From assembly GCA_947632175.1 (NCBI GenBank), contig CANROC010000028.1, positions 1 through 33,140 of the forward strand: a stretch of 33,140 nucleotides of DNA, in the 5' to 3' direction. Both the position numbers and the translations under genes were made by a program. Positions within the stretch are counted from its first letter, which is position 1, and each line of letters starts with the position of its first letter. Shown here piece by piece: positions 1,616 to 33,140 of this stretch. This DNA is from an uncultured Oscillospiraceae bacterium (GTDB lineage Bacteria; Bacillota; Clostridia; Oscillospirales; Oscillospiraceae). Below the pieces are notes generated by a model. The model saw only the letters and a list, made by a program, of their open reading frames with translations, searched no databases and was not told where the DNA came from.

Positions 1616-2167
1616 TCACATGGACGGCCCTGTCATAGTGGGACCGCCGCTTTGCTGTTGCCCGCTCATGGTCTGCTCCGGGTCGCGGCACCGGATGTGG
1701 ATGCCCTCGCAGTCGTAGCCCACGGGCTTGAGGATGCGTTCCCTCAGAACATAGAGCAGGGACTCGGTGTCGAACTTGGTTTCCATGTAGAGGCCCTCGT
1801 CTATCTTCACCGGCGAGTCCATGCCGTCCTTATCTCCGAGGAGTACCCGGTCCCGCCCGAAGACCTTCCCGGAAATACTCATGAGCCTGTCGTGCATGGC
1901 AGGGTCGCTGTTGCAGTCGGTGAGGATAGCGGAGACGGCCTTCTTCCATGTCGTTGTCTCGACCGTCCTTCCGTCAGGGAAGCTCACCGAGAGAGGGCGC
2001 TTGCCCTTGAATACAGAGGGGTGTATATCCAGTGGGAGAGAGCGGCTCTCCATCTGAGACACCTGCCCGGAGAGCAGAGCGTCGATCCTCCTGTCTACCG
2101 TCTCGTGGAGCTGGGCGCGGAGCTCTTCGATGAGCTCCACGGGAAGTTCGCTGTTTGCTCGTTCCAT
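1616..2167 (-). CDS. Unknown accessory protein with Met-rich C-terminal tail
   Basis: 183 residues from an ATG at 2167, with GAGGTGG just upstream; a GTG at 2176 is less likely. The first 40 residues form a charged helix (ERANSELPVELIEELRAQL). The middle reads SFPDGRTVETTTWKKAVSAI, then DEGLYMETKF and a segment like those ending many element- and phage-encoded proteins (a DG..V..WK....I and GLY.ET pattern). I recognise the pattern but not a function. The C-terminus is GGPTMTGPSM, one of the shared Met/Gly tails described in the findings. No gene follows for about 340 nt, so this tail cannot be a by-product of a ribosome-binding site. Starts 11 nt after the upstream stop. Confidence 0.75.
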   Translation of the reverse strand: MERANSELPVELIEELRAQLHETVDRRIDALLSGQVSQMESRSLPLDIHPSVFKGKRPLSVSFPDGRTVETTTWKKAVSAILTDCNSDPAMHDRLMSISGKVFGRDRVLLGDKDGMDSPVKIDEGLYMETKFDTESLLYVLRERILKPVGYDCEGIHIRCRDPEQTMSGQQQSGGPTMTGPSM

Positions 2168-2177
2168 CCGCGCCACC

Positions 2178-3686
2178 TCACATCGTCTGCCCCATCATGG
2201 GAGCAGGAGCGTGCGTCTCGACCACGGGAGTCAGCTCCTTGCCGCGCAGCTTCTCGGTGAATATCTCCTGCCGCCGCTCCTGACGCTGCTGTGTCTTGCG
2301 GTTGGCGGCGTAGGCAGCGACGGAGAGGTCGTGGAATTTGTACTCATGCCAACCACTGCACTCGTCGAGTGTGGAGAGCGTCTCGGCATCCACGTCCACC
2401 ATGAACACGCCTACCACACGGCCCGTGTTATCTGCGCGCTCCACGAGGGCAGACTTGAATTCGGTGACGTCGCACTCACGCGCTCTGTAGAGAGTGGATG
2501 CGAATGGGGCACTCATCTCTCTGTTGAGGTAGCCCCGGATACACCCGGAGAGGTTCAGGAGGTTCATCCCGCCCTCGCTGATGAGGAAGCTGTCCCGTCC
2601 ATCCTCAGTCACCTTCAGAGCGGAGAACCGGCGCTGGGCCTCACGCTCCCGTTCCATGCGCTCATCCTCGGCGCGGATCTCCTGGCGGATGTCCTCACGG
2701 ACCTGTTCGGGGAGCTGCTCTGTGAGCCCATTAAGCAACTCCTCCATCTTTTTCTGGAGATCGTGGCCGGGCAGATGCTCCTCCAGAGCGTCTGCCCAGC
2801 GTTCGTCTATCCAGAGGGATATTTCTCTGCTTGACATTTTGTTTTCACCTTCCTGTTTCGTAGTCTTTCTCACCGTGGACGCGGCCTCCGCTTCTCGCTC
2901 GGTCAGATACTCCGCACACCACTCGTCCAGCGGTGTGCCGCATTGCTGGCAGTAGTCTCGCATCATGGTGAGGAGCATGGCGCGCTCGTCGTCGGAGAGC
3001 CGGTATCTCATGGGGATGTCCACGCCGTCATAGCGGCAGAGGGTCAACTCCAGAACGCCCACCACCTCGTCGGCGTCCAGATCGTAGTCGGCGTACACGT
3101 TCAGCCAGCTGTCACTGTCGTTTTTATCGAAGTGTGTACCGAACAGCGCATCCACATCGCAGTTGATGGCGAGGTAGAAGTTGAGGAGGTTGTCCATCTC
3201 CTCAATGCTGTCATCGGGAAAGAAATCACTCTCGTTGATGGGCCGGCTGGCGTAGAGTGTAACAGGCAGCGCGGCGGTGAAGGCACCTTCCTGAAGTGCC
3301 CGGTCAAATTTCTCTTGCCGCGCCTCATAGGGTGCGGACTCAGACGGCCCCGCGGACTTTGCGGCCTGGCAGACATCGTCGAGGTTGTACACTTTCCAGC
3401 CGCGGTCAGCGTCCAGCACGGACGCGACCGCGCCGACGAAGTCTACCCGGTAAATCCCGGCCCTCTCATCCGCCGCCTCCACATGGCTGATGACGAGCTG
3501 CTGGAATCTCTCCGCGTCGATCCGCTCCGCATCGCCGAAAATCACGCTGTTGGGGTTTCGCAGATGCTTTTCCACCGCGTCCGCCACATCGAGGAAGGTG
3601 AGGGGCCTATCTATGAGCAGATAGGTTTTCTCCCTCTCCCCCATGACGCACAGAGCGGAGGGACACGTCCTCACCTCATCCGCCAT
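2178..3686 (-). CDS. Two-module accessory protein (DUF6329-like), possibly two genes; Met-rich tail
   Basis: 502 residues. Residues about 18-115 and 300-460 are diverged copies of one domain: both carry a D..(E)F..LV segment, then a GW..Y..D...AA..A pattern (GWKVYNLDDVCQAAKSA and GWHEYKFHDLSVAAYAA). Between them, residues 140-255 hold the SDSWLNVYADYDLDADEVVG region that I recall as DUF6329-like in clostridial elements. Met284 at 2837 (MSSREISLWIDERW) is preceded by AGGAAGGTG. It begins a segment that I recall as a separate protein in related elements, so an internal start or a gene fusion is likely. The C-terminus APAPMMGQTM is a shared Met tail. The start at 3686 overlaps the DUF6103 gene. 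Function unknown. Confidence 0.75.
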   Translation of the reverse strand: MADEVRTCPSALCVMGEREKTYLLIDRPLTFLDVADAVEKHLRNPNSVIFGDAERIDAERFQQLVISHVEAADERAGIYRVDFVGAVASVLDADRGWKVYNLDDVCQAAKSAGPSESAPYEARQEKFDRALQEGAFTAALPVTLYASRPINESDFFPDDSIEEMDNLLNFYLAINCDVDALFGTHFDKNDSDSWLNVYADYDLDADEVVGVLELTLCRYDGVDIPMRYRLSDDERAMLLTMMRDYCQQCGTPLDEWCAEYLTEREAEAASTVRKTTKQEGENKMSSREISLWIDERWADALEEHLPGHDLQKKMEELLNGLTEQLPEQVREDIRQEIRAEDERMEREREAQRRFSALKVTEDGRDSFLISEGGMNLLNLSGCIRGYLNREMSAPFASTLYRARECDVTEFKSALVERADNTGRVVGVFMVDVDAETLSTLDECSGWHEYKFHDLSVAAYAANRKTQQRQERRQEIFTEKLRGKELTPVVETHAPAPMMGQTM

Positions 3687-3942
3687 CCTTCTTCACCTCT
3701 TTCGCTGTCGCCACAGCCGTCGTGGGCTTTGGAGCGGGCTTGGGCTTGGGACGGGAGGCGGGGGCGCCGCGGCTCTCAATGTACTCCCGCACCTCCTCCG
3801 GGACCGTCTGCTCGTAGAGAGTGTCCAGCACCTTTGTCAGTTCCTTCAGCGGAGTGGTGTTTTTCTTCTTAAGATAATGTGTCATCGCGTTCAGCTTGTC
3901 GTCGTCAATGGATATTGTCACATCTATCTTGTTCACAATCAT
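3676..3942 (-). CDS. DUF6103-like small protein with Pro/Lys tail
   Basis: 88 residues. An N-terminal IDVTISIDDDKLNAMTHYL segment and KELTKVLDTLYEQTVPEEVREYIESR resemble the DUF6103 family as I remember it. These are small helical proteins encoded next to clostridial transfer genes, perhaps ribbon-helix-helix related. The last 25 residues are rich in Pro, Lys and Ala (RPKPKPAPKP), a flexible basic tail that could touch DNA or membrane. It lies 9 nt after the NlpC/P60 stop, and AAGGAG precedes the ATG. It overlaps the next gene by 11 nt. Function unknown; a part in the transfer operon is inferred from position. Confidence 0.65.
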   Translation of the reverse strand: MIVNKIDVTISIDDDKLNAMTHYLKKKNTTPLKELTKVLDTLYEQTVPEEVREYIESRGAPASRPKPKPAPKPTTAVATAKEVKKDGG

Positions 3943-3951
3943 ACTCCTTTC

Positions 3952-5163
3952 TCAGTCATAGCTGATCCCCGGCACCTGGAGCCAGTGTGTGAAGCCGCGC
4001 TCAGAGAGCTTCGTCTTGACCACGCCGTACCTGGTACCCATGGCCTCTATGACCTCACCGCCCCCGATGTAGACGCCGATGTGCCCGTTGCACCACACGG
4101 CGAGGCCGGGGATCTCCGGGATGGTGTCTATGGTCCCGGACACCGTGGCGGCGTGGTACATACTGTTGGCTCCCATATCCGCGATGCCGTTTGCCTGGTA
4201 GCCGAAGGTCATCGTCTCGGTATTCAGCCAGCCGTAGCTCTTGATGAGCCCACAGCAGTCCACCGTGCGCCGTCCCAGCCAGTTTGCCCGGATGAAGTCC
4301 TCGTAGGGTCCCACGTTGTCCGGGTACTGCTCCAGCTTTGACTGGAGGAGGCTCTCCGTCATCACCTTCCCGGTAGTCCCCCACACATAGCCCCAGCCGT
4401 TTTCCCACGCTTGCACGGCGTAGGCGGCAAGGTCATGGGCGTTCTTGGTGGTGGGGTCGGTGAAGTGTGAGATGTCTATGTCCGTGGAGCTTCCCGTCCC
4501 GCGCTGGATGTCCCCCGTCAGGGAGATCCCGCCGTCCAGTGCGCCGGCGATCCTGGCGTAGATCTGGGCGATGTTCTTTTTGTCATCCTCGGTGATCTCC
4601 CGGCCAAGCCGCTGGCCGACGAGGGAGTACGCCTCACTGAGTGGGCGCGGTGTGGCCACCGTGTACGTTTCCTCCTGAGTGACCTGTTCGCCGTTCTCGT
4701 TCAGTACCGGGTTTCCCGCCTCGTCCACCACGGGGACGGTCCTCGTTTTCTCCTCTGTACTGTAGAAGCACTCCACGAAGTTATCTGCCGCCTGCTGGCT
4801 GGGAGAGTCCGAGTCAAAGCAGAGGGCATAAAAAACAGCCTTGACCCGGACCGAGTCAAGGCTGTTGTCCTCCATCATCCCGTTGGCCGTATTGATGGCG
4901 TTGTCCAGAACAGTGAAGGCGCTTTGCATTTCGGATATGCGGTCCCTATACTCCGCTGGCGTATCTGAGGAAATGGAGCCGCCGTAGAAGCAGATGTCCA
5001 CGGCGTTATTGTTGTGGCTGGCCGTCCCGGAGCCCAGAGAGCAGAGGAGCAAAATAATGAGGATGAGCGGAGAACAGATCGCCAGCGCCACCCATCCCAA
5101 CACTTTCCGCCCTTTCTCACTGGAGAGCAGGACGGCGGCCACCTTTGCCAACGCCTCGGTCAT
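3952..5163 (-). CDS. Membrane-anchored NlpC/P60 cell-wall hydrolase of the conjugation apparatus
   Basis: 403 residues. One membrane helix at about 21-43 (VLGWVALAICSPLILIILLL) is followed by an extracellular helical stretch and a C-terminal NlpC/P60 peptidase domain. The catalytic Cys is probably Cys303 in VDCCGLIKSY, with His361 in NGHIGVYIGGGEVIEAMG. Such enzymes cut peptide stems of peptidoglycan so the transfer channel can cross the wall, as VirB1-like proteins and the Tn916 hydrolase do. The bacteriophage-lysozyme domain found in some relatives is replaced here by residues 55-240, which I cannot assign. The ATG overlaps the TGA of the preceding gene, showing tight coupling. No Met tail: it ends PGISYD. 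Confidence 0.85.
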   Translation of the reverse strand: MTEALAKVAAVLLSSEKGRKVLGWVALAICSPLILIILLLCSLGSGTASHNNNAVDICFYGGSISSDTPAEYRDRISEMQSAFTVLDNAINTANGMMEDNSLDSVRVKAVFYALCFDSDSPSQQAADNFVECFYSTEEKTRTVPVVDEAGNPVLNENGEQVTQEETYTVATPRPLSEAYSLVGQRLGREITEDDKKNIAQIYARIAGALDGGISLTGDIQRGTGSSTDIDISHFTDPTTKNAHDLAAYAVQAWENGWGYVWGTTGKVMTESLLQSKLEQYPDNVGPYEDFIRANWLGRRTVDCCGLIKSYGWLNTETMTFGYQANGIADMGANSMYHAATVSGTIDTIPEIPGLAVWCNGHIGVYIGGGEVIEAMGTRYGVVKTKLSERGFTHWLQVPGISYD

Positions 5164-5747
5164 AAGCTCATCTCCATTCCGGCCATAGGCTGGGAGGTGG
5201 GAGGCGCAGTCTGTGTCTGCTCCTGCTTCGACGGGATTCCCAGCTTCTCCATGACTTTTTTCAGCTCCGGGCGGGGCTCCTGTGACGAGAGCATTTCCGC
5301 GAGGGCGTTCTTTTCCTCGGCGTTAAGGCAGAGTACGGTCCCCGCCTGCTCGTTGTGCCAGCCTTCGCCGTGGAAGGCTTTCGTGATGGCGGAGCCGACA
5401 AGGAACATCCTGTCCATGTCGTACCCCGTTTCGCCCAGGGTCTTGCCTGTGGCAAAGTTGCGGATGATGGATTTATCTTTTTCATACCATTTAAGGTACA
5501 CGTCCACATAGACGCCTTCACTTCCGCCGTAGTCCGCGGTGCAGAAAATTTCCGCGCCCTTGGGAATTGTCTTCCCGTTCTCCCAATCCATGCTCATGAG
5601 GAAGTATTCGTCGGGCAGGAAGCCGGACTCCTTCAGCCTGTTCTCTAACTCTCTGAACACATCCTCTGCCACGGGCTGGCCCACATAGCGCAGGTACCTG
5701 GGATCTTCCGGGTTGGGTTCCCATATTGCAAGATCAATAGGCTTCAT
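5160..5747 (-). CDS. Unknown protein between VirB4 and the hydrolase, Met-rich tail
   Basis: 195 residues from an ATG at 5747 with AAAGGAGG just upstream; the open frame before it is not needed. It is acidic and soluble, with no membrane helix. Segments include PVAEDVFRELENRLKESGF, DYGGSEGVYVDVYLKWYEKD, and ETGYDMDRMFLVGSAITKAF. I do not recognise the family; the overall look recalls element-encoded DUF proteins. The end, QPMAGMEMSL, is a shared Met tail, and its codons include GGAG, which serves as ribosome-binding site for the overlapping hydrolase gene. It is notable as a tail-bearing protein inside the channel operon, so a chaperone or substrate of the channel is possible but unproven. 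Confidence 0.75.
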   Translation of the reverse strand: MKPIDLAIWEPNPEDPRYLRYVGQPVAEDVFRELENRLKESGFLPDEYFLMSMDWENGKTIPKGAEIFCTADYGGSEGVYVDVYLKWYEKDKSIIRNFATGKTLGETGYDMDRMFLVGSAITKAFHGEGWHNEQAGTVLCLNAEEKNALAEMLSSQEPRPELKKVMEKLGIPSKQEQTQTAPPTSQPMAGMEMSL

Positions 5748-5758
5748 AAATCCTCCTT

Positions 5759-7714
5759 TCACCGTCCTCCCGCCGAGCCAAAGAGCGCCCGCTTGTATTC
5801 CGGGGCGTGGACCTCCAGCAGGAAGCGTTCCGCGCCGCACTTGTAAAGGCAGACGCCGTTTTGCGGATAGCGGATGAGCTCATACTCGCTGGGCTCCAGC
5901 TGGAGGTTGTTCATGTAGAAGTCCTTGTCCACCGCGCCGCAGTGGAAGATGAACTGATGGGTGGGGATGGCGAAGAGGGGCCTCGTCAGCTCCCGGATGC
6001 CGTCCACGTTGAAGTCCTCCAGATTCTGCGAGGCCATGATGAGGGAGGACTCCTTCTTCCTCACACGCTTGAGGGTGTTGCGGATGTACTCGATGGTCAT
6101 GCGGTTGCTGAGCCAGATATACAGCTCGTCCAGCGCCGCCACGGTGTTGCCCTCGGTGAGAAGCCGGTCGCTGAGATAGGACAGGACGTTGAACAAAAGC
6201 GCGTCCTTCACGTTCACATTACCGTTGAGCAGCTCCTTCACGCCGAACACAAGAAATCGGTCTGACGTGATGTTGGTGTGGCCGTTGAAGAATTTGCTCT
6301 CCGCGCCCACACACATGGAGTGGAGGCCCAACTTCACCTGCTGGAGAAGCTCCTTTGTGTAGAGAGGATTTTGTTCCCGGTCGAAGTTGTCCGCCGCCTC
6401 CTCGATCACGGCGTAGAGATCGGAGAGGGTGGGATAGTCCTCGCTCTTGAGCTTGGAAAAGTCCGTGTAGTCGTTGAGGCCGAATTTGTGGTACATCCGC
6501 TCCAGCATCAGCTCGATGGTGTCGATGTGCCACTGGCTGAAGTCCTTGTAGGCGCGGAAGAAATCCTTGAGAAAGGAGATGTGCTGGCTCAAACGTGAGC
6601 GTTTGCGAAACGCCTCCGGGGTGTCCGTGTCCTCCTCGCTGTCCCCGTCCACATCCCACACCTTGGGCTCCAGCGGGTTAATGATGTACTTGCCGCTCAT
6701 GAGGTCAATGAAACACCCGCCCAGGTTGGCGGCCAGATCCACAAGCTCATGCTCCGGGTCAAGACATATGACCTTTTTACCGGACTCCAGAAGATTTTCA
6801 AGGAGGAGCTTCAGGAGAAAGCTCTTGCCCTCGCCGGAGTTGCCGAGGATGAGGACGCTGCCGTTGGTCTTGTCCTCGGCACGGCGGTCCAGGTCCACGA
6901 TGACGCTGCTCCCGTACCGATCCTTGCCGATGTAGAAGCCGTGGGGGTCCGTCTTGCCGGAGTAGTTGAACGGAAAGAGGTTCGCCACCGAGGAGGCGGG
7001 GAGCACTCTCTCATACTGGCTCCCGAAGCAGTTGGACCCCGCGGGGTTCACGGACTGGAAGCCCTCCTGCTGGCGCAGCAGAATACGATCCGCACTGAGC
7101 TTGGAGCGCACCAGCTCCGCCATCACCTCGTTTGTCAGGTTCCGAAGTCCCTCCTGGTCCCGCGCCGACAGCTCAATGAACACGGCGCAGTGCATAAGAG
7201 GCTCATTGCTACGGTGCATGGAGGCGATGAGGTTCGTCACGTCCTGGAGGTTCATCTCCGCTGTGACCGCCTGCCTCACGTCGTTGTTGGCCCGGTTCAT
7301 GCGGTTTTTGTTGCTGGCGTTGTGTAGGATCTTGTTCTCCTCCAAAGGGTCCACGCGCCTTGTGTAGACGGACAGCGTCACGCCGCTCTTGTCCCCCAAG
7401 TGCCGTAAAAGGGCCAGCTCCTCAGTGCTGGTGGGGTAGCCCCGGATGGCGAACACGGTGCGGTAGGAGTTGCCGAGGACATAGCTGTCCGTGTTGAACT
7501 TCACCGCGCCGGGGGCGATGATGTCCAGAAAATCTTTAGGTTCGGGGACAGTGTCCCTCCTGGGCTTTTTCTCTCTCTGCTTCTCCGCGGGAGGCCGCTC
7601 AACACGCCGAGCCTCCTTGGTCTGCCGCACCGGGGGCCGTTTCCTGTTTACGGGCTTTCGTTTCTGGCATCCGTAGAGGATTGTCCTGCCTCCGCAGTGT
7701 TTTTTCTTACTCAC
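5759..7714 (-). CDS. VirB4-type conjugation ATPase (CD1110-like)
   Basis: 651 residues. This is the ATPase that powers the type IV secretion channel at the inner face of the membrane. A basic N-terminal 60 residues (KRKPVNRKRPPVR) precede the VirB4 core. The Walker A motif GNSGEGKS is at 291-298, Walker B AALDE at about 526-530, and ASQNLED at 561-567 fits the conserved Gln motif of the HerA/VirB4 family. The start is a GTG at 7714 inside the end of the preceding gene, with AAAGGGCGG before it. It follows a protein that looks like a separate VirB4 N-terminal domain. Length is somewhat short for VirB4, consistent with that split. It ends ALFGSAGGR, with no Met tail. Confidence 0.93.
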   Translation of the reverse strand: MSKKKHCGGRTILYGCQKRKPVNRKRPPVRQTKEARRVERPPAEKQREKKPRRDTVPEPKDFLDIIAPGAVKFNTDSYVLGNSYRTVFAIRGYPTSTEELALLRHLGDKSGVTLSVYTRRVDPLEENKILHNASNKNRMNRANNDVRQAVTAEMNLQDVTNLIASMHRSNEPLMHCAVFIELSARDQEGLRNLTNEVMAELVRSKLSADRILLRQQEGFQSVNPAGSNCFGSQYERVLPASSVANLFPFNYSGKTDPHGFYIGKDRYGSSVIVDLDRRAEDKTNGSVLILGNSGEGKSFLLKLLLENLLESGKKVICLDPEHELVDLAANLGGCFIDLMSGKYIINPLEPKVWDVDGDSEEDTDTPEAFRKRSRLSQHISFLKDFFRAYKDFSQWHIDTIELMLERMYHKFGLNDYTDFSKLKSEDYPTLSDLYAVIEEAADNFDREQNPLYTKELLQQVKLGLHSMCVGAESKFFNGHTNITSDRFLVFGVKELLNGNVNVKDALLFNVLSYLSDRLLTEGNTVAALDELYIWLSNRMTIEYIRNTLKRVRKKESSLIMASQNLEDFNVDGIRELTRPLFAIPTHQFIFHCGAVDKDFYMNNLQLEPSEYELIRYPQNGVCLYKCGAERFLLEVHAPEYKRALFGSAGGR

Positions 7715-10038: not shown

Positions 10039-11505
10039 TCACGCGCATTGCAGGGCAATGGCGGCAGCGATCCGGCACATGACAAACTTCACGCACGGAA
10101 TGGCGACACTGTTTCCAAGGGCCTTGTACCGGGCAGAGTCCGACGCGCCGGGGATGTTGGTCCAGCCGTCCGGGAAGCCCTGGAGCCGTTCGCACTCCAA
10201 AGGCGTAAGGCGGCGAATGAGGCGAGGCGTGTCTTCTGTATTTGCTTCCTGGCAGACGAGGTCGGTGGCATCCTTGTGCTGTCGGGCGCTCTCGGTGCTG
10301 GCTACGTCGTCCTCGGTGAACACGTCCACCCTCTGGCGGCTGAACACGGCGTGGTGATCCTTTGCGGTGAGCGTATAGGCAATATCCTCCTGACACCCCA
10401 CGCCGTTGCCGCCGTTTTCCGATTTTCTGTCAATGATGTTGCCGACGATGCAAAAAACCGGTTCCTCCTGCTCCACCAGCGGCACATTGTTTCCACCTGT
10501 TCCGTATCTCGCAGACATGGTGGGGGCCACGTCGTGGGGGCCGGTATAGCGGGAGTCGATGCCGTGGTTTTCGAAAACCAGCGGCTGATGCCCGTGCTCC
10601 TGGGCTCTCAATGTACCGCTGATGTCATCTGAACACTCCATGACGGAGCCGCCCTGGTCGTTGAGGCACAGGACGCTGGGTACCATGTTGGTACCGCTCT
10701 CCGAGGCTTTCAGGGTTGGCGATGCTTCCTCCGTGTATCCGATCCCTCCGGCACCGGGGCCCGCTCCGGCGTTGAAGGCCGCCGAGAACAGGAGCCCCGC
10801 GGGGTTTCTCCCACCGCCTCCGTCCGCGCCGGCCAAAGTTGGAGCTACGCTGTCCGGGGTGAACACTCTCGCTTGTTGTGTATCCCAAGGGGTAAGGCAA
10901 TTCTCCGGCTGGGTGACGAAGGTCTGCATCTGCATATTCTGCGTCCGCATCAGAGCGCCGGACACGCCGTGAAGGTCTATGCCCTCATTCCTCTGGTTTA
11001 TATGGTAAGCATTCACCTTCATCGAGGAGATCATCGAGCAGATCATCGCCGAAGTCATCATCTCCATCGGTATAAGGCCAGCTTGTATCATCAGGGCAAT
11101 CTCCAGTTGCCGCGGGAGGGGTTTCCCTCTCTCCGTCGATCTCCGGAGAATACCCAGGCAGGCTGTCCTGCTTAAAGAGTATCTTGAATGCGGATGTGCC
11201 TCCAAAATCCGCGACAAGGAAGATTCTATTGCGTCTCTGGGGCACACCCCAGTATTGGGCGTCGAGGGTCCTCCAGGCAACGGATAGATCATTTCCCAAT
11301 ATGACAATCCCAGGATGTCCCCATGACCAGGGGTAAGGTCCAGGAACAGATACGGCACCGTACTTAATTCGGAGTATTTCTTCGAGGACGATGCGGAAGT
11401 CTTCCCCCTTCGGCTCGCCGCTGGAGAAGGCTCCGGGTACGTTTTCCCAGACCATGAATCTTGGTCGAACAGACACACCTGTCCGTCCACGTTGAATGTC
11501 TGCAT
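10039..11505 (-). CDS. C5 cytosine methyltransferase, C-terminal half with overprinted N-terminal extension
   Basis: 488 residues. Residues 431-449 (RRLTPLECERLQGFPDGWT) are C5-methylase motif IX and 458-468 (ARYKALGNSVA) motif X. Residues about 165-425 form the target-recognition part, with six repeats of a D/E-x-A/S-x-T-L/M-x-A pattern. Motifs I-VIII are missing from this frame; they are in the upstream gene, which overlaps residues 1-173 in another frame. The ATG at 11505 has a textbook AAAGGAG 7 nt upstream, so it is probably translated by itself. The first 140 residues (CLFDQDSWSGKTYPEPSP, then LSRILEAHPHSRYSLSRTA) resemble proteins I recall from phages and elements. The two chains could join as a two-subunit methylase. 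Confidence 0.82.
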   Translation of the reverse strand: MQTFNVDGQVCLFDQDSWSGKTYPEPSPAASRRGKTSASSSKKYSELSTVPYLFLDLTPGHGDILGLSYWEMIYPLPGGPSTPNTGVCPRDAIESSLSRILEAHPHSRYSLSRTACLGILRRSTERGKPLPRQLEIALMIQAGLIPMEMMTSAMICSMISSMKVNAYHINQRNEGIDLHGVSGALMRTQNMQMQTFVTQPENCLTPWDTQQARVFTPDSVAPTLAGADGGGGRNPAGLLFSAAFNAGAGPGAGGIGYTEEASPTLKASESGTNMVPSVLCLNDQGGSVMECSDDISGTLRAQEHGHQPLVFENHGIDSRYTGPHDVAPTMSARYGTGGNNVPLVEQEEPVFCIVGNIIDRKSENGGNGVGCQEDIAYTLTAKDHHAVFSRQRVDVFTEDDVASTESARQHKDATDLVCQEANTEDTPRLIRRLTPLECERLQGFPDGWTNIPGASDSARYKALGNSVAIPCVKFVMCRIAAAIALQCA

Positions 11506-11872
11506 TTCTCATCTCCTTTACGATCCTGCATTGCTCCATAAAAAGGCCGGAGCGCGCGCCGGCAAGTCCGGCACGCGCCCCAGCCACGCTAAGATCCTGA
11601 CAAGGGCTGCCTCCGCAGATGATGTCCACGGGAGGCAGCTTTGCCCCGTCCAGCTTCGTGATGTCCCCGACGTGGATCATGTCGGGGAAGTGGTGTTTTG
11701 TTACCTCGATGGGGAAGGCTTCGATCTCGCTGGCCCAAACTGGGGTGATCCCCGCAGCAATGGCCGCCAATGGGAAGCCTCCTATCCCATCGAAAAGGCT
11801 GCCCATTGTGACCTGGCCCATTCCGGCCCGGTCAATAAGGCCGCCTTCTTCTGAATACGGCCTTGCGTCCAT
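10985..11872 (-). CDS. C5 cytosine methyltransferase, N-terminal catalytic half
   Basis: 295 residues from an ATG at 11872 with GGCAGGAG upstream, 16 nt after virB6. It carries motif I (SLFDGIGGFPLAA, residues 25-37), motif IV with the catalytic Cys91 (GGSPCQDLSVAG), motif VI (WENVPG, 142-147) and motif VIII (VPQRRNRIFLVADF, 210-223). It ends in an acidic tail (DDDFGDDLLDDLLDEGE) with no target-recognition domain or motifs IX-X; those are in the overlapping second gene. Codons for IVKEM (residues 117-121) double as the ribosome-binding site of that gene. A single-base frameshift splitting one long gene is the rival explanation. Role: methylates cytosines, probably to shield the element from host restriction. 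Confidence 0.85.
   Translation of the reverse strand: MDARPYSEEGGLIDRAGMGQVTMGSLFDGIGGFPLAAIAAGITPVWASEIEAFPIEVTKHHFPDMIHVGDITKLDGAKLPPVDIICGGSPCQDLSVAGARAGLAGARSGLFMEQCRIVKEMRNADIQRGRTGVSVRPRFMVWENVPGAFSSGEPKGEDFRIVLEEILRIKYGAVSVPGPYPWSWGHPGIVILGNDLSVAWRTLDAQYWGVPQRRNRIFLVADFGGTSAFKILFKQDSLPGYSPEIDGERETPPAATGDCPDDTSWPYTDGDDDFGDDLLDDLLDEGECLPYKPEE
11513..11519 (-). promoter_or_regulatory. Internal ribosome-binding site for the second methylase chain
   Basis: AAAGGAG, 7 nt before the ATG at 11505, lies inside the first methylase gene, where its bases also encode Val-Lys-Glu of IVKEM. Its strength and spacing decide the start of the overlapping second gene and argue against a simple broken gene. 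Confidence 0.75.
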
Positions 11873-11888: not shown

Positions 11889-12785
11889 TTACTTAGAAAC
11901 CGCCGCCACGATGGTCTTCGTGGTGTTAACGGCTGCCTGGGCGGTGTAGACGGCGGACATGATGCTGGCTCGCGTCGTGGTGTCCAGTCCGAACGTCCCT
12001 GCGATCCGCGGCACCTCACCGGCTGAGAGCATGAGGCCCAAGCCCATAATAGCGTGGGTCTTGAAGACCAACAGCCCCGCGATGAGCATGGTGGACTGCA
12101 AAAACGCCGTCAGACACAGGCCAATAACCTGCTTCATCCACTGGACAAAGCCGTCCCCGTATCCTCTCGGAATGCTGAACATATACAGCGACCCTACGGC
12201 TATCTGGATGAGAAGGATGCCGCCTCTTTTCAGGTTTGCGAAGAAGACCTTGAACACGGCATAGGCCATTAAGATCACGGCAAACAGGACCATAATGGCG
12301 CTTTTTATGACGCCGAAGCCGAGAAGCGGCTGGCCCACCATGGAGGAGAGCGTGTCGTAACCGTTGAAGTCATTCAGGATAATGATGGCAAGCTCCCCGA
12401 TAGAGCCGCAGCCGGTGAGGGCCTGAGAGAGCGTCCCCTGCAGGGACACGGAGAGAGCGTAAAGACGCACGGGCACGATGGTGAAGAGGCTCACCGCCAT
12501 GAAGCCCTTGAGAATGTTCAACGCTGTTTGACGCACATTCCCTCTGCCGCCGCTGTACTCCACAGCGCATTCGAAGGCGCAGACGATGAGACTTACGGCA
12601 AAGAGGGCCCAGGCCAGCTTGGAGAAGAAGCCAACGACGGCCTGGACCCAGGGAAGGTCGAAAAGCTCCACGCCCATGTTCCCCATCTGCTCAAAGAAGT
12701 TTAAAAGAAAGCCGATGATCTGAGAGTATATCCAGTCCATGATCTCGGCGAGAATGGCAGAGGCCACAAAGTTCCATATGAACAT
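11889..12785 (-). CDS. VirB6/TrbL-like polytopic membrane channel protein (CD1112-like)
   Basis: 298 residues, with about six membrane segments (for example FFSKLAWALFAVSLIVCAF, AIMVLFAVILMAYAVFKVFF, LCLTAFLQSTMLIAGLLVF) and an N-terminal amphipathic region. The arrangement, the N-terminal IMDWIYSQIIGFLLNFFEQM, and its place after the DUF3852/DUF3851 pair match the VirB6/TrbL-like proteins of clostridial transposons as I recall them. It would form the inner-membrane part of the type IV secretion channel and is probably exported co-translationally without a cleaved signal. GGGGGG lies before the ATG. It ends TIVAAVSK, without a Met tail. Confidence 0.88.
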   Translation of the reverse strand: MFIWNFVASAILAEIMDWIYSQIIGFLLNFFEQMGNMGVELFDLPWVQAVVGFFSKLAWALFAVSLIVCAFECAVEYSGGRGNVRQTALNILKGFMAVSLFTIVPVRLYALSVSLQGTLSQALTGCGSIGELAIIILNDFNGYDTLSSMVGQPLLGFGVIKSAIMVLFAVILMAYAVFKVFFANLKRGGILLIQIAVGSLYMFSIPRGYGDGFVQWMKQVIGLCLTAFLQSTMLIAGLLVFKTHAIMGLGLMLSAGEVPRIAGTFGLDTTTRASIMSAVYTAQAAVNTTKTIVAAVSK

Positions 12786-12799: not shown

Positions 12800-13213
12800 T
12801 TACATGGTCAGGCTCATACTGCCGGCCTCCATGCGCTGCGTCTGCTGTGAAAAAAGCTCCACATAGTTGCTGACGGCCTCCGTGAGCGCGGCATAGTCCG
12901 ATCTGGTGGGAGTAAACCCGTACCACTCCGTTTTCCCGTCGCAGGTCCATGCGAAAGGAGGGCTGTCCATCGGGAGGTTCTTCTTGGAGAAGGAATCTCC
13001 AAACCGTATGGCGGTGGTATCCAGTACGCCCTCCACCTTGCTGACAGCTTGGGCTCTGAGGGCGGTGTAGCGGTCGGCCACGCCCTGAGTTATAAACTCA
13101 AACTTGGCGACATTGTCCCCGCCAAGGGGGACGAATGCCGCTCTGCCGATGTATTTGGCATTAGAACAGACGGGGCCGACGATCTTGCGAAGCTCCTGTT
13201 CAAAGAACGTCAT
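12800..13213 (-). CDS. DUF3851-like transfer-operon protein, Met-rich tail
   Basis: 137 residues, no membrane segment. The segments NAKYIGRAAFVPLGGDNVAK, FEFITQGVADRYTALRAQ and GKTEWYGFTPTRSDYAALTE match my memory of DUF3851, which follows DUF3852 in clostridial conjugative transposons. Function is unknown. The C-terminus MEAGSMSLTM is one of the shared Met tails, and it is the tail-bearing protein closest to the core channel genes. Its stop is followed by AGGGGGG, which serves virB6. It starts 9 nt after the DUF3852 gene, so the three are one operon. Confidence 0.75.
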   Translation of the reverse strand: MTFFEQELRKIVGPVCSNAKYIGRAAFVPLGGDNVAKFEFITQGVADRYTALRAQAVSKVEGVLDTTAIRFGDSFSKKNLPMDSPPFAWTCDGKTEWYGFTPTRSDYAALTEAVSNYVELFSQQTQRMEAGSMSLTM

Positions 13214-24872: not shown

Positions 24873-25277
24873 TCACATCGCCATCGTAGGGCCCGTGGGC
24901 GCGGATGCGGCGGTCTGCTGGGACTGGCGGTGCTTCTCGGCCATGGCGTCCATGGCCTGCCCGTAGGCGGCGATGGCGGTGGCGTTCAGCTTGTCATACA
25001 TCTCACGGGTGGTGGTGAACACGATGTCCTTGTACTCCTCGCCCACCTTCTTCTGAGGCATGGAGACGAAGGGTCCGTTCTTGCCCTGCACCAGCTTGGC
25101 GCCGCGAATGGCGAAGCAGCCGTTCACGTCCACCGAGAGATTGGCCAGCACCTGTCCCATATCGCTGACGGGATACGCCCGTACCGTGACGTCAGTGGGC
25201 AGGGCGGGCCGCTCCTGCTCCCTCTGTCCGGACACCTCCGGCGCTGTCTGCTTCTGTTCCTGTTTGGGTTTACTCAT
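24873..25277 (-). CDS. SpoVG-family protein with Met-rich tail
   Basis: 134 residues. After a polar 28-residue lead, residues 29-105 match SpoVG: VTVRAYPVSDMGQVLANLSV, then CFAIRGAKLVQGKNGPFVSM and PQKKVGEEYKDIVF. SpoVG proteins are small nucleic-acid-binding regulators of septation, sporulation and virulence in Firmicutes and also occur on mobile elements. The extra C-terminal segment (about 106-134) ends APTGPTMAM, a shared Met tail absent from chromosomal SpoVG as I know it. AAGGAGG precedes the ATG. It ends 4 nt before the GTG of the membrane-anchored protein gene, linking the accessory and surface modules. Confidence 0.85.
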   Translation of the reverse strand: MSKPKQEQKQTAPEVSGQREQERPALPTDVTVRAYPVSDMGQVLANLSVDVNGCFAIRGAKLVQGKNGPFVSMPQKKVGEEYKDIVFTTTREMYDKLNATAIAAYGQAMDAMAEKHRQSQQTAASAPTGPTMAM

Positions 25278-25323: not shown

Positions 25324-26055
25324 TTATTTCATCTCCATCCCGCCCATCCCCTGGCTGGGTTCCGGGGCTGGGTTTCTAAGCTCCTGAAGCTTCTCTTTCG
25401 CCCAATCGGGCAGATACTTCTCGTCCAGAACGCCGTCGAAATCCTGCCGGTTCCAAAAGACTGTCTCGCCGTCGTCGATGCAGGTGGCAAGGACGGCTCT
25501 GCCTCTGGCGTTGGGGCTGCAGCCGAAGCCGCCTTGGGCGTACCACAGCTGGGCCTTCGGCGTCCAGTATTCCTCCTTCAGCGTGTCGGGAGAGAGTACC
25601 AAGACCTTTCCATTCAGGTCAACGCCGGAGAGGGGCGTGTACTGGCTTTTGTCTATGAGGCCAAGGGCTTCGTAAGCCTGCCTGACCTGGCCGATGAATT
25701 CCTCTACCGCAGGACGAGCGGCATCCACGTCAAAGTACATATCATGCTCCGGGTCGGGGAGGACGTCTATAGAACTGCTCCACTCTTCCATGCCCCTGCC
25801 GGCGCGCACTTTGGGGTCGAGATTGCAGACACTTTTAGCGAGAACATACATTGTCCGCTTGATCCCGTAATCCTCCGTCACACCTTTGGCGCAGTCGGGC
25901 GGGATATGCTCCCCGCCGCCGTCGCGGATAGCCTTCTCGATGGCTCTGGCGCAGCAGACATTCTCCTTGAAGCTCTCCCGCCAAAGCAACAGCTCATCCC
26001 GCCTCACGGCTTCGTCGTGGGTATAGCGGTAGATGAGGGGAAATTCATTCTCCAT
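25324..26055 (-). CDS. DUF3849-family protein with Met-rich tail
   Basis: 243 residues. The N-terminal half matches DUF3849 as I recall it: PLIYRYTHDEAVRRDELLLW, RESFKENVCCARAIEKAIRD and YGIKRTMYVLAKSVC. Residues about 145-225 add a beta-rich segment (KVLVLSPDTLKEEYWTPKAQ, then ARGRAVLATCIDDGETVFWN). Members sit on conjugative elements of gut Firmicutes; no activity is known to me. The C-terminus QGMGGMEMK is a shared Met tail, coded ATG-GGC-GGG-ATG; the next gene is 47 nt away with its own ribosome-binding site. The ATG overlaps the end of the AbrB-like gene by 11 nt. Confidence 0.82.
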   Translation of the reverse strand: MENEFPLIYRYTHDEAVRRDELLLWRESFKENVCCARAIEKAIRDGGGEHIPPDCAKGVTEDYGIKRTMYVLAKSVCNLDPKVRAGRGMEEWSSSIDVLPDPEHDMYFDVDAARPAVEEFIGQVRQAYEALGLIDKSQYTPLSGVDLNGKVLVLSPDTLKEEYWTPKAQLWYAQGGFGCSPNARGRAVLATCIDDGETVFWNRQDFDGVLDEKYLPDWAKEKLQELRNPAPEPSQGMGGMEMK

Positions 26056-27850: not shown

Positions 27851-29026
27851 CTACATCATGCTCATCCCTCCCATCTGCGGCTCCTGGCAGACTGCCTGAA
27901 TGGGCTGCCGGTCCTTCCGCTCGATGCCTCCGTAGGGGGTCATGGAGATGTTCTGCTCCTCAAGGAGCTTTTCCCCATACCTATGGAGTTCTACGAAGGG
28001 AAGCAGGGTCGCCCTGTCGTTTTCGCCCAGCAAAACCGACAGCTCGTCCAGCGCCACGGCTTCAGGTCCGTCAAATTTGCGAGTGAACCAATATGAGTCA
28101 ACGCTGTCCATGAGCCTCATAGCGTTGGAGAGGTCAGAGCATCGGGTGGCCTCGACGAGAGCTTTGTATGCCAGAAGGTCGCTCTGCGGGAGGTCGCGGA
28201 GCTGTTTGGCGGTGTGGTTTGCGTAGCCGATGTTGTCCTCCTGACTGAAGGCGTCCCGCAGTGCCGGAACAAGGCAGTCTACGCAGCGCCAGGAGAGAAC
28301 AGACAAATCATTGGCTCCTAACTGTGCGCGGACGTTGTCGATCGCAGCGCGGCCACATGGAAGTTCCAGAGTCATCGACTGGCCGGAATCCATTATGGAC
28401 ACCTCCAACAGCGCCGTATAGTCCGGCTTTTTCGGTGTCAGGTCCAGGTCCTTGAATTCCTCCTTCAAGTCATCGATCCTCACCACGTATCCACGTTCTC
28501 TGATGAAGGCTCCGCACTCCCGGTCCGCCATCAGCTTGCCTATTGCTTCAAAGTTCAGAAAACCCCACGCCTGTTCCTGTACGTTCTCCAGCTCCGGCAC
28601 AAAGCCGTTCTCGGCGTAGAACTTGCCAAGGGAGGCGAGATCCGTGGCCTCATACAGCACCTGACAGCTGTCTACGCTGGAGGCAAGGTCATAGAGCCGG
28701 GGGATGTCTATCCCCACGCCGTTGTTTTCATCTATCCGCACCAGACCCTCAAAGGCGTCTATTTGCCATCCCTCCAGCGTCGTCAGCTTATTCGCCAGAG
28801 CGTTCAGCGCCCGAAGGTTCTCCTCCTCGCCGATGTGGGACCGCAAAAACAGGAAGTCACCAAAGCTCTCCACGGACACCAGCGTCTCACCGCCCTCGCC
28901 GTCCCGAACCTTTTGGAGCGCGTCCTCCAGCTCGTACTCCGTGGCCGGCAGAACGATGTCCGCTGACGGTCCACAGAAGCCATCTCTCCAGTTGTACACG
29001 CAGGCGGAGAAGATGACCTTATCCAA
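27851..29026 (-). CDS. ArdA-type anti-restriction protein with Met-rich tail
   Basis: 391 residues, about twice normal ArdA. The first 200 residues follow Ard[61 protein letters not shown] and [20 protein letters not shown]. The rest (about 205-370) is a second unit ([20 protein letters not shown], then [20 protein letters not shown]), perhaps a diverged ArdA-like half. ArdA mimics DNA and blocks type I restriction enzymes in the new host after conjugation. The TTG start at 29026 overlaps the DUF4314 gene, whose tail codons GGGAGG act as ribosome-binding site. The end, PQMGGMSMM, is a clear shared tail, with no gene directly behind it. Confidence 0.8.
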
Positions 29027-30002
29027 AGCTCATCCCTCCCATCTGCGGTCCCTTCTGCTCCCACGCTTTGGGATCAGCGCCGGGGACGGTCCAGCCGTGC
29101 ATACTTCCCGTTTCCATGGCTTGACGTTGAGCGGAGGTGACACCGAGGCGCTCATTCAGGTGGTCTGCCAGCGCCTCATTGCGTTGGCGGTCGTTCGTAC
29201 TCCAGTCCGAGGGGTAATAGCCTGACTCGCCGCGCTTGATGCAGATGAGGTCCCCCTGGCCGGGGAGGACGGAGAAGCACATCTCCGGCAGGCCCTCGGC
29301 AAGTTTGGGCGCAAACCGCTCCTGCTCCGTCTGAATGCTCCAGTTCTCCGAATTCCAGAGGTGGACGTTCAGGACTCCATCCGAAACCTTGAGGTCCCGC
29401 TGCTCGAAGCCCTCGCCTACGCCGTCAGACGCCTGCCCGGAGATAAACTCTTTAAGAGTCGATAGCTCCTCCGGCGTAAGCTCGCCGGCGACCTTGCACT
29501 CGGCCACGCCCCAAAGCTGGCCATCGCGCTCCTCCACGGTAAACTCGGCGGAGCGGACCTTGCGGTTCACCACGTCCTCCTCATCGTACCAGTGCATGAG
29601 ACCGCTCTCGCTCTCCTCCGGCAGCCGTTCACCGACGAGGGCGCGGGAGATCAGGCCCTCATAGGCAAGAAGGTCGCGCCCATCCAGCTCCGTGCCCTCA
29701 TTTTCAAGGTCGCCCCATCGGTTGCGCTCAAAAAGCTCGGCGGTCAGAGGCATATAGAGCTTCAGGGTATGCGCTTCCGGGGGCAGCACTGTGAAGCTGT
29801 CCTTCCCGACCACCACGCCAAGGGTCCGGCCATTGTCCCACTTCACGCCGAAGGTCCCAAGGTCGTCAATGTATTGAAGCGTCCCCATGCTCCCCGGTTT
29901 GATGGGGTTTGGGTCATCCGCGCCCATCTGCCGGAGCTTGATCCGCGACCCCACGGGATACTGCTCCCGCAGAAAATCCAGCCATTCCTGAGATATTGCC
30001 AT
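29019..30002 (-). CDS. DUF4314 protein with Met-rich tail
   Basis: 327 residues. Residues 17-67 are a DUF4314 domain ([46 protein letters not shown]), a small SH3-like barrel on mobile elements. The middle (about 95-235) has a segment pattern [40 protein letters not shown] that I recall from anti-restriction-type accessory proteins. The C-terminus [10 protein letters not shown] is a shared tail, and its codons contain the ribosome-binding site of the overlapping ArdA gene. The ATG directly follows the preceding TAA. Activity unknown; an establishment role beside ArdA is inferred. Confidence 0.8.
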
Positions 30003-30395
30003 TTACATCATCTCCATTCTCATCGTATTGTTCTGCTCTGCCATACTCATCTGCGGCTCGTAGACCTCCATCTCGTAGAGCACCTTCGGCTCGTTGCTCC
30101 GGGAGTCCATCACCGTTATGGAGCTGCCGTTGAACTTGTACATCCCGGCCTTCTCAAAATCTGACCGAAACCCCATGCCGTGGTTTATATTCGAGTATTT
30201 GTGTTTGGGCTGGTCCTTTATTTTGGAGTAGAAGCAGTTGGTCTGTACGGTGGTCACCACCCGCGTCAGCCCCACGATCTCCGGGTGCTTGGAGTGGTAA
30301 GTGGCCCGAATCTCCGTCCCCGGCTTTATGAGCCGCTTCAGCTCCGCCAGATTCTTGATCTGGCAGGGCGTTCTTTCTTCGTTTTCCTCTGCCAT
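30003..30395 (-). CDS. Small unknown protein with Met-rich tail
   Basis: 130 residues, no membrane segment. CQIKNLAELKRLIKPGTEIR, ATYHSKHPEIVGLTRVVTTV, QTNCFYSK and GMGFRSDFEKAGMYKFNGSS suggest a small beta barrel; I do not know the family. The end, NTMRMEMM, is a shared Met tail, and GGAG within it can serve the next gene, whose ATG follows the stop directly. AAAGGGGG lies before its own ATG. It is the first gene of the minus-strand run beyond hicAB, so a promoter should lie in the 107 nt shared with the divergent hicA, but I see no clear one on this strand. Confidence 0.7.
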   Translation of the reverse strand: MAEENEERTPCQIKNLAELKRLIKPGTEIRATYHSKHPEIVGLTRVVTTVQTNCFYSKIKDQPKHKYSNINHGMGFRSDFEKAGMYKFNGSSITVMDSRSNEPKVLYEMEVYEPQMSMAEQNNTMRMEMM

Positions 30396-30479: not shown

Positions 30480-30502
30480 GATACAGGAGAGGAAGTGCAA
30501 CG

Positions 30503-31098: not shown

Positions 31099-31104
31099 CC
31101 CTCG

Positions 31105-31134: not shown

Positions 31135-31137
31135 ATC

Positions 31138-32145
31138 TCACATTGACATTGTAAAGCCTGCCGCTGGCGCTTCCTCCATCTTGGCCTTTAGCTCCGGCGC
31201 TTCGTAGATGGTCCTTCTGCCGTATGTGATGGCGCGGACATCCTTCGCCGTGAAACTTGCCAAGCTTCCGAACGCTTCCCGGTATATCTTGCGGTCAGCG
31301 GTGGGAGCGTCGAGGTCATCGTAGGTGGGATGGTAGCCGGAGAGGCTCCTCGCAAGGGTACGGATGGTAGCCTGGGCACCGTCCTTCTCGATGGTGACAC
31401 GGACAGTGTACGCTCCGCTGGCCCTGACAGCATCGGAGATCTGGCGCATCCTGTGGAGGGGATTGTCCGGGTCGGCAAGGATGGCGTCATATTTCTCGCG
31501 AAGGATATCTATCTTCATGAGCTCGGCCAGTATCTCCTCCTTGTGAAGGGAGATGTAGACCATGGCGGTGCGGTCCACGAAGCTCTTGCGGTCCTGAAGG
31601 TAGTCCAACAGGCCGTCGTCCATGTCTGTGGTGGTGTATTTAGACCTGAACTGTAAGCACTTATCCGGACTGGACTCCACCAGCAGGCGTGCGGCGGCTT
31701 CGTCCGCATATATTTCACGGTAGTCGGCAACCTCCTCTATGAGCTTTTTATCTGACAGCTCTTTGGGAATACCCTTGCGCCCATTGTTGACCCTGTCCTC
31801 GATGCGCTCCCTCACGCCCTTGCAAAATTCCTCGGTCAGGCTCCGCTCTGTGACTGCCGGATCGTTTTTCCAGTCAGACACAGCGCAGGCGGGGACGTTC
31901 GGACAGTAGAGCTTCTGCTCGTCCTGCTTGTATAGCCCGGTGAATCTGAAACCGCTGTTGATGCAGGGGAGCTCACGAAGGCCGGTATAGCCATCCTGAT
32001 GAAATATAAGGTCGATCCCCTCCCGCTGGGGGATCTTAATAAAGCAGGCCCAAACCTTTGTCCGCTCCACGGCCAGCATATCCTTACCGTCCTTCAGCCA
32101 CGCCATGAATTCCTCGGTCGTAAGCGGGCCTTTGTGTGTGATCAT
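31138..32145 (-). CDS. Unknown accessory protein, tandem paralogue A, Met-rich tail
   Basis: 335 residues from an ATG at 32145 with GGGAGGTGAG upstream (coded by the end of the previous gene). It is paralogous to the gene before it: shared segments are REGIDLIFHQDG, REKYDAILADPDNPLHRMRQ, ISDAVRASGAYTVRVTIEKD and the near-end FTAKDVRAITYGRRTIYEAP. The middle (about 85-180) is helical and charged. I do not know the family or function. Unlike its paralogue it continues past the common YEAP with a tail, PAAGFTMSM, of the shared type. No gene directly follows, since hicAB converges on it. Confidence 0.75.
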   Translation of the reverse strand: MITHKGPLTTEEFMAWLKDGKDMLAVERTKVWACFIKIPQREGIDLIFHQDGYTGLRELPCINSGFRFTGLYKQDEQKLYCPNVPACAVSDWKNDPAVTERSLTEEFCKGVRERIEDRVNNGRKGIPKELSDKKLIEEVADYREIYADEAAARLLVESSPDKCLQFRSKYTTTDMDDGLLDYLQDRKSFVDRTAMVYISLHKEEILAELMKIDILREKYDAILADPDNPLHRMRQISDAVRASGAYTVRVTIEKDGAQATIRTLARSLSGYHPTYDDLDAPTADRKIYREAFGSLASFTAKDVRAITYGRRTIYEAPELKAKMEEAPAAGFTMSM

Positions 32146-32146
32146 T

Positions 32147-33118
32147 TCACTCACCTCCCTTCGGCGCTTCATAGATCGTTTTTGTCCCACGGGTGATCCT
32201 CACAATGTCCTGGGCGGTGTAGTTCGCATTCGCTCCGAACAGCTTGGCAAACCTCTCCCGGTCCTGCGGCGGGAGGGCCTTTGTATCGTAGGACTCGTGG
32301 TATCCCATGAGCTTTCCTGACTCCTCAATGAAGGTGAGCTCCGCGCCGCTTTTCCGAACAGTAACATCCACATAGTGTCGCGCCCCGCTATGGCTGACGG
32401 CATCAGAGACAGCCTTGATCGTGTGGATCGGGTCATCTTTATTCGCCAAAAGGGAGGCGTATTTGGTTCTGAGAACATCCGCCTTGAGGAATCCAAACAG
32501 GATCAATTCCCTGCCGTTGGCAATGAAGTTCTCGACAGTGGCATTTATATACCCTTCTCTATCCAGTAGATAGCCTACCAGCTTATCCCCCCAAGCGAAT
32601 CGCTCGAATGTTCCGATGTAATGTATGTCCTCCGGCTTTTTGCCGGCGAACAGCAATGTCGCAGCATCCCTCTTTACCTCTCTATCCCCGTACCGAGTAA
32701 GCTCTTTCAGGAGATCGAGGGTGGTTATCTTTTTGGCTCCGTACTTCTCTCTGTCAGTCGTAACGATTGCCGCGACCCGGTCATTCACCGTTTGGTTGAA
32801 CTCTTTCAACAGCATCCCCTTGCTTTTAGCGGACTCCTCCGGGAGGTCCTTCACAAGCTCGCTGAGATGATTACAGCAACAGAGGCGGTCCTGCTCCCTG
32901 ACATAGATACCGCAGCAGTAGAAGAAGCCATTATGCCCCAGGAGCAAGTCTCCCTCCATGTACTGCATGAAAATGTAGTCGATCCCTCTATCTGTGGGGA
33001 GTTTGAGCAATACCGCGGAGTCCGGGTCCCCCTCTACTTTGAGATTTAGATACGGACTTTTGCCCCTGACCCAGTTTAAGAGCTTCTGCGTGGAAGTAGG
33101 GGCTTTCAAGGTTTTCAA
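32147..33118 (-). CDS. Unknown accessory protein, tandem paralogue B, without tail
   Basis: 323 residues from a TTG at 33118; GGGAGG, coded by the tail of the gene before it, lies 8 nt upstream. It shares DRGIDYIFMQYM, RTKYASLLANKDDPIHTIKA, VSDAVSHSGARHYVDVTVRK and YTAQDIVRITRGTKTIYEAP with paralogue A. Three adjacent cysteines (RLCCCNHLSEL) are distinctive. It ends right after the common domain (YEAPKGGE), with no Met tail; the KGGE codons form the ribosome-binding site of paralogue A. Function unknown. Confidence 0.75.
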   Translation of the reverse strand: MKTLKAPTSTQKLLNWVRGKSPYLNLKVEGDPDSAVLLKLPTDRGIDYIFMQYMEGDLLLGHNGFFYCCGIYVREQDRLCCCNHLSELVKDLPEESAKSKGMLLKEFNQTVNDRVAAIVTTDREKYGAKKITTLDLLKELTRYGDREVKRDAATLLFAGKKPEDIHYIGTFERFAWGDKLVGYLLDREGYINATVENFIANGRELILFGFLKADVLRTKYASLLANKDDPIHTIKAVSDAVSHSGARHYVDVTVRKSGAELTFIEESGKLMGYHESYDTKALPPQDRERFAKLFGANANYTAQDIVRITRGTKTIYEAPKGGE

Positions 33119-33119
33119 T

Positions 33120-33140
33120 TTACATTCCTCCCATCGTCAT
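33120..33140 (-). CDS. 3' end of an upstream gene (partial), ending in a Met/Gly tail
   Basis: The minus strand at the right edge reads ATG-ACG-ATG-GGA-GGA-ATG-TAA, in frame to end a protein with MTMGGM, 1 nt before the TTG of paralogue B. Only six codons are visible, so the protein is unknown. Its ending matches the shared tail and carries the next gene's ribosome-binding site. Confidence 0.5.
   Translation of the reverse strand: MTMGGM

Follow-up and report, generated by a model that had tools for sequence, protein, structure and literature searches.

Shared Met/Gly C-terminal endings on proteins of a probable MobL/TrbL_5-type integrative conjugative element: a candidate address for type IV secretion

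Why should proteins with no evident kinship, encoded near one another on a single conjugative element, finish in nearly the same few residues? The question is raised by contig CANROC010000028.1 of an uncultured Oscillospiraceae bacterium (assembly GCA_947632175.1); the window analyzed here is the entire contig (33,140 bases, C28) of a 3.54-Mb genome in 82 contigs. It carries part of an integrative conjugative element (ICE), with VirB4, TrbL/VirB6 (PF19511), and the N-terminal 282 residues of a MobL relaxase, part of what is probably an array of the MobL/TrbL_5 type; VirD4 is absent from the window, and in relatives such as locus L031 it stands behind the relaxase. A preliminary description of this DNA listed twelve proteins with a loose Met/Gly ending and named three possible explanations, namely, a translocation tag, docking to a common hub, and stability control. 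Our analysis suggests that each element family marks its own proteins for recruitment, and probably for sending to the new cell, by its own transfer machine, and from the sequence comparisons below we put at roughly 0.65 the probability that the Met/Gly tail serves as a C-terminal address by which proteins of this ICE family reach its type IV secretion system.

Met/Gly endings in the window and in related elements

Genes were called throughout with our own script, and a protein was counted as tailed when at least two Met residues lay within its last eight (the two-Met rule). By this rule, 11/33 called genes of the window are tailed, against 8/609 nonredundant control proteins (Fisher p about 6e-11), and a twelfth Met/Gly tail belongs to a gene truncated at the edge of the contig. 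All twelve endings that had been quoted are present on the minus strand, the last of them as the final six residues (MTMGGM) and stop of the cut gene (33120-33140).

Enrichment in related elements, which the preliminary description had proposed as a check, is equally clear. For the element set we took the proteins encoded on the operon strand in 51 loci from related elements, some of which overlap or include flanking genes and one of which (L133) also contains an element of the Arg type discussed below; the controls were 12 stretches of this genome and one each from 20 others, presumed chromosomal, which may include mobile genes and one of which adjoins a VirB4-like match; nonredundant sets had relatives removed at 60 percent identity. 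The two-Met rule is satisfied by 72/416 nonredundant element proteins versus 8/609 control proteins (Fisher p about 1e-21), and the eight control endings, judged by eye, do not have the look of a P/G/polar stretch followed by M-x-M. The excess of methionine is limited to roughly the final six positions, where it reaches 15.9, 8.9, 9.6, 7.5, 7.7, and 7.0 percent versus 1.3, 1.3, 1.0, 2.0, 1.5, and 2.5 percent at the same positions of the controls, and glycine is raised at -4 to -6 in element proteins. The tail thus sits at the extreme C terminus, the Met excess being confined to positions -1 to -6.

The endings are spread over families in a patterned way. When 803 distinct element proteins were clustered without their last 20 residues, 34 of the resulting 198 families held a tailed member, a few of these being single weak cases. 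Of the 50 families with at least four members, 9 are at least half tailed and 31 have no tail at all, while 2000 shuffles of the labels gave 1.4 families at least half tailed on average and at most 6. Chance, or the descent of all tailed proteins from a single ancestor, is therefore hard to reconcile with the number of separate families, although the same families recur across elements, so that the counts are not independent; we regard this explanation as very improbable.

Within the window, the bearers are short on recognizable domains. The protein at 1616-2167 (minus strand, as for all genes in this paragraph) has no Pfam match, ends in ...GGPTMTGPSM, and belongs to a family tailed in 3/3 members, with the next called gene 342 nt off; its neighbor at 2178-3686, also without a Pfam match, ends in ...APAPMMGQTM (family 18/24 tailed). 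The protein at 5160-5747 (...QPMAGMEMSL; family 9/9 tailed) is missing a long part that is found in 4/6 aligned relatives (L029, L030, L031, and L035), and in L031 consists of ankyrin repeats, and has kept the tail; in an AlphaFold2 model built from seven sequences (mean predicted local distance difference test score [pLDDT], 75), its last 24 residues fall below a pLDDT of 50 and are predicted to be disordered, this being the one tail for which disorder was predicted. Further along are a protein without a Pfam match at 12800-13213 (...AGSMSLTM; family 3/8 tailed, Met in the last six residues in 8/8) and one at 13647-14051 (...TQTQQMLM; family 7/10 tailed) whose DUF3848 match is weak and below the Pfam cutoff. 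The SpoVG-family protein at 24873-25277 (...PTGPTMAM; family 9/9 tailed), with no second match to SpoVG anywhere in the genome, is followed in coordinate order by a DUF3849 protein at 25324-26055 (...GMGGMEMK; family 9/9 tailed), an ArdA-like protein at 27851-29026 (...QMGGMSMM; family 13/17 tailed, Met in the last six in 17/17), a DUF4314 protein at 29019-30002 (...QMGGMSFG; family 6/10 tailed), and proteins without a Pfam match at 30003-30395 (...NTMRMEMM; family 8/9 tailed) and 31138-32145 (...AAGFTMSM). The ArdA match is below the Pfam cutoff in the window protein and above it in the family member from L080. The gene at 32147-33118 encodes a paralogue of the neighboring 31138-32145 protein and is untailed, as read directly in the sequence. 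A scan of ten window bearers against NCBIfam gave no usable name, and each window bearer matches at most one Pfam domain, short of the several effector domains characteristic of polyvalent proteins.

Elsewhere in the element set, YodL (4/5) and amidoligase (3/3) are tailed, and the DUF3991/Toprim protein beside the relaxase is tailed in 9/24 cases and has a Met among its final six residues in 21/24. Free loss of the tail among close homologues, which had been named in advance as a sign against the idea, is seen only in part: most bearing families with at least four members keep the tail in most members despite divergence, but retention is incomplete, the Toprim and DUF4314 families being the examples.

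The transfer machine itself is untailed. The VirB4 ATPase (5759-7630, minus strand) belongs to a family with 0/27 tailed members and TrbL/VirB6 (11889-12785, minus strand) to one with 0/22; VirD4 (0/21), the small protein preceding the relaxase (0/27), the adhesin (0/11), and DUF3852 (0/19) likewise have no tailed member, and neither does the family (0/26) of the gene at 3952-5163 (minus strand), called a hydrolase in the preliminary description and without a Pfam match at E 0.01. Methylases (1/33) and a DUF6103-like family (1/27) are nearly tail-free. The earlier observation that VirB4, TrbL/VirB6, the hydrolase, the methylases, sortase, adhesin, HicAB, and Bro-N lack the tail was borne out when their endings were read, some of these names being those of the preliminary description. 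For the cytosine methylase region of the window (10039-11872), gene calling gave two overlapping genes that belong to a single family, a possible sign of a split gene. The 2,622-residue adhesin (14056-21924) ends in LPRTGY, and a sortase-like ending of this kind is shown by 10/11 members of its family.

A second shared ending on homologues in Tn1549-like elements

The two-Met tail is nearly absent from 14 loci of MOBP relaxases without a Met ending (2/212 genes). A different shared ending, a terminal Arg that is typically -ER or -AR, is found in three of those 14 loci and in five named records, from Monoglobus, Cohnella, and, in three cases, Subdoligranulum, which were picked by similarity of the relaxase or VirD4 to the first loci and not by ending. 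Arg is the last residue of 55/121 nonredundant proteins of these Arg-type stretches, versus 46/614 control proteins and 18/397 proteins of Met-type loci. It closes the protein in 8/8 members of the family after PcfB and 3/3 of YodL, and 4/6 proteins of more than 1,000 residues end in -ER; Arg is last in 0/8 VirD4 and 1/8 MobC proteins.

Met-type and Arg-type elements have six families in common (Toprim, DUF3849, DUF4314, DUF3848-like, YodL, and the family of the 30003-30395 protein), and in these the ending is exchanged. A two-Met tail closes 43 of the 67 members from Met-type loci, 60 have a Met among their final six residues, and a terminal Arg is absent from all 67; among 18 members from Arg-type loci, not all independent, as L209 and L211 are near copies, 15 end in Arg and none has a two-Met tail. 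The DUF3849 pair illustrates the swap, the window protein ending in LPDWAKEKLQELRNPAPEPSQGMGGMEMK and its Arg-type homologue from Monoglobus in LPEWAKEKAQELSNKKRNKDKER (...KRNKDKER). A short hydrophobic C terminus can serve as a degron, and tails that limit the amount of protein in the donor as degrons or stability tags could in principle look like those described here. The homologues from Arg-type elements, of which three come from the same host genus, nevertheless share a different ending, and since a host protease is not expected to vary with the element, we consider stability control improbable.

Could either ending be a by-product of the ribosome-binding site of the following gene? In the window, six tails (2178, 5160, 12800, 24873, 29019, and 30003) and the cut one lie at most 14 nt from the next gene or overlap it, which would allow a ribosome-binding site to be encoded in the same codons, and those at 29019 and 33120 do resemble a Shine-Dalgarno-like word. 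For the other five (1616, 13647, 25324, 27851, and 31138), the next gene is 39 to 342 nt away, and it is convergent in the case of 31138. Across the element set, 61/404 genes with a neighbor starting within 15 nt are tailed versus 44/260 at more than 30 nt (p 0.59). A Shine-Dalgarno-like word is present in the last codons of 23/61 close tailed genes, but it is equally common in close untailed genes (130/343), and it occurs in 3/44 tailed genes whose next gene is more than 30 nt away. Arg endings, for their part, occur at every gene spacing, including 21/58 beyond 30 nt, and are encoded by each of the six Arg codons. Since tails are about as frequent whether the next gene is near or far, ribosome-binding sites fail to account for them, though some tails overlap one, and we reject this origin for Met and Arg endings alike as scarcely credible.

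In a VirD4 tree of 30 rows (without L246), the 21 Met-type rows lie on one side of a fully supported branch, apart from the Arg-type rows, an agreement that is partly built in because the Met rows were drawn from one BLAST family and labeled by element type. Two rows of a possible third type fall inside the Arg group, beside Cohnella. A stretch of Vescimonas fastidiosa with a CD1110/CD1112/CD1115 ICE, which may hold two adjacent elements, encodes DUF3849 and MutS-like proteins ending in DMEL, an ArdA protein ending in EIEL, PcfB ending in GVEL, and, further upstream, a fifth protein ending in DLEV; the ending is DMEV on a relative of the MutS-like protein from Monoglobus, whose ArdA protein and PcfB have other endings. 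The pattern in these loci (L247 and L250) is a basic stretch followed by [DE]/G-hydrophobic-Glu-Leu/Val, and control proteins ending in hydrophobic-Glu-[LVI] number 5/614. We take this acid-hydrophobic-Glu-Leu/Val ending as a possible third shared ending, and as a lead only.

Endings of the relaxases

The relaxase of the window (3-848, minus strand) runs off the contig, so its C terminus cannot be read there; this genome also encodes an 80 percent relative, which ends in ...DHEDEKMNQTMG. Two other MobL relaxases of this genome end in ...DEKMNQTMG (C17) and ...DMQMQGFSM (C35). At a further one on C16 (G000:C16:1480-3365, L013), the called frame stops early, and the ending ...DVQMQGFSM lies in a separate short frame behind it. 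One record in a plasmid collection covers 80 percent of the MobL relaxase.

We compared 59 MobL relaxases of more than 400 residues from genomes of the family, calling a stretch mobilizable type when VirB4, VirD4, TrbL, and Toprim were absent from it and ICE type when such genes were present. Mobilizable-type relaxases carry a two-Met tail in 24/33 cases and Met in the last six residues in 29/33, with the reservation that the labels rest on the core genes within each fetched stretch and some may be wrong because some stretches are short contigs (L072, L100, and L101). For MOBP relaxases (PF03432), 30 loci were fetched and the ending was readable in 25, of which 5 have a Met ending; in four of these the tail follows a GHKxDDHE motif, as on MobL relaxases, and in L197 the ending (...GFGGMGGMSM) stands without it. 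The L191 relaxase has the motif and one Met, and the remaining MOBP relaxases have mostly basic residues at the end. MobL and MOBP are distinct in Pfam, yet PF03432 weakly matches a MobL relaxase. The GHKxDDHE motif just before the tail is common to MobL relaxases and the MOBP relaxases of L182, L184, L185, L190, and L191, and it was matched in 48 MobL-labeled proteins and 7 others, overlapping loci being counted.

Near mobilizable-type relaxases, we also noted Met-tailed Fic-like proteins (L091:7752-8369 and L127:8056-8679) and a Met-tailed AbiEii protein (L126:12962-13966). The Fic identity was scanned for the L091 protein, and the L127 protein was named by similarity. These genes are placed near the relaxases; they may belong to the elements themselves.

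A candidate address for type IV secretion

The architecture suggested by these proteins is that of a folded protein, then a polar flexible stretch, and then a hydrophobic Met/Gly ending, roughly P-x-M-G-G-M-x-M. If the ending is an address, it would probably be read by the VirD4 coupling protein or by a VirD4-bound partner; it would bring establishment proteins (ArdA-like, SpoVG-like, Toprim/DUF3991, YodL, DUF3849, and DUF4314) to the channel, and in many elements the relaxase as well, and the tagged proteins would probably pass into the recipient together with the DNA or alongside it. A different coupling protein would then go with a different ending, Met in MobL/TrbL_5 ICEs and Arg in Tn1549-like ICEs, and a further group of elements would perhaps read the acid-hydrophobic-Glu-Leu ending. 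A mobilizable element that relies on a resident ICE would carry the tag on its relaxase in order to be taken along.

The Met ending on mobilizable-type relaxases, together with the different shared ending on homologues, therefore favors an address for type IV secretion over stability control, in line with the first of the three explanations originally offered. Entry into the recipient would be a further step, and docking without export would look alike. It is conceivable that the tails dock proteins on a common donor hub, the relaxosome or the coupling complex, for assembly or regulation without any export: the sequence evidence fits this equally, and as some conjugative relaxases are untailed while their cargo is tailed, a hub for cargo only is possible. 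The bearers (ArdA-like, SpoVG-like, Toprim, YodL, Fic, and AbiEii), however, would seem to have no obvious common task in the donor, and tagging is strongest on the relaxases of mobilizable-type loci. We consider such a hub rather unlikely, and we return to the secretion address as the preferred reading.

Several observations weigh against a secretion address: (i) ICE-type MobL relaxases are weakly tagged, with a two-Met tail in 1/26 and Met in the last six residues in 19/26; (ii) among 15 MobL C-terminal stretches taken phylum-wide, 3 have Met in the last six residues and 12 do not, seven of the latter having a GHA-DD motif and ending in RQSY, HQSY, RQNL, HTNY, or QQSN and five being of other or unclear kind; (iii) in 3/7 elements with Met-less GHA-DD relaxases, the cargo ends in MSM or MKL; (iv) Arg endings are not uniform in Arg-type elements (MOBP relaxase, 7/8; Toprim, 5/8; PcfB, 3/6), and 1/5 VirB4 proteins of these elements also ends in Arg; (v) L089 and L102 have no two-Met tail, and these two and L085 are labeled Met in the VirD4 tree though hardly tailed, besides the part of the tree's agreement that is built in; and (vi) the proteins are related, and the counts and the Fisher test assume an independence that is not fully given. 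An element-by-element match of relaxase ending to cargo ending was accordingly dropped, as it fails in three ICEs (relaxases ending in RQSY, HQSY, and RQNL). Met-tailed cargo beside Met-less relaxases means that cargo can be tagged where the relaxase has a different ending, and a Met-less relaxase may dock through the motif region or a partner.

The BID domain is a folded domain and is the signal of the Fic toxin VbhT, whereas here the signal would be a short tail. With that signal, VbhT moves between bacteria by a conjugative type IV secretion system, which the Met-tailed Fic protein near a mobilizable-type relaxase recalls (PMC5675462; this and the following papers are cited from the excerpts available, except where the main text is named). 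Type IV secretion signals often lie at the C terminus and have no common consensus, the earliest described having been positive clusters or hydrophobic residues; relaxase MobA is taken by Agrobacterium VirB/D4 via its C-terminal 48 residues, and positive charge matters in VirB/D4 signals (PMC10025392). The endings described here resemble the VirB/D4 signals in being C-terminal and common to different proteins, and the Arg endings of Tn1549-like elements recall their positive charge (PMC10025392). They differ in that the Met/Gly ending is uncharged and the elements are Gram-positive; a C-terminal Arg motif is not a feature of Met-type loci (Arg last in 18/397), and Arg-type loci (55/121) were scored for a terminal Arg. 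Polyvalent and antirestriction proteins of Tn1549-like ICEs (ArdA, YodL, primase, and helicase) have been proposed to be delivered with the DNA, and ArdA and YodL are among the tailed families here; the main text of that paper makes no mention of methionine, a C-terminal tail, a C-terminal signal, or a secretion signal (PMC5512222). Maintenance proteins of F plasmids cross via the conjugative type IV secretion system, the excerpts of those papers describing no shared short C-terminal tag (PMC8406263; PMC11288057). MobL relaxases, the family (Pfam MobL) to which those of the present elements belong, have no C-terminal transfer signal described in the excerpts of PMC5313138, and a literature search by title and abstract opening found no description of such tags.

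Little is known about which proteins accompany the DNA in Gram-positive conjugation, and polyvalent and antirestriction proteins have been proposed to travel with no signal recognized so far. A sequence tag that predicts cargo makes protein travel directly testable, and matching tags could make it easier to assign a mobilizable element to the ICE that carries it. We are modestly inclined to the broader view that Gram-positive conjugative elements write an element-specific C-terminal barcode on their sets of establishment proteins, one that changes with the coupling protein. If so, the proteins sent to the recipient would be readable from sequence, including the toxin-antitoxin proteins of mobilizable hitchhikers that copy the barcode.

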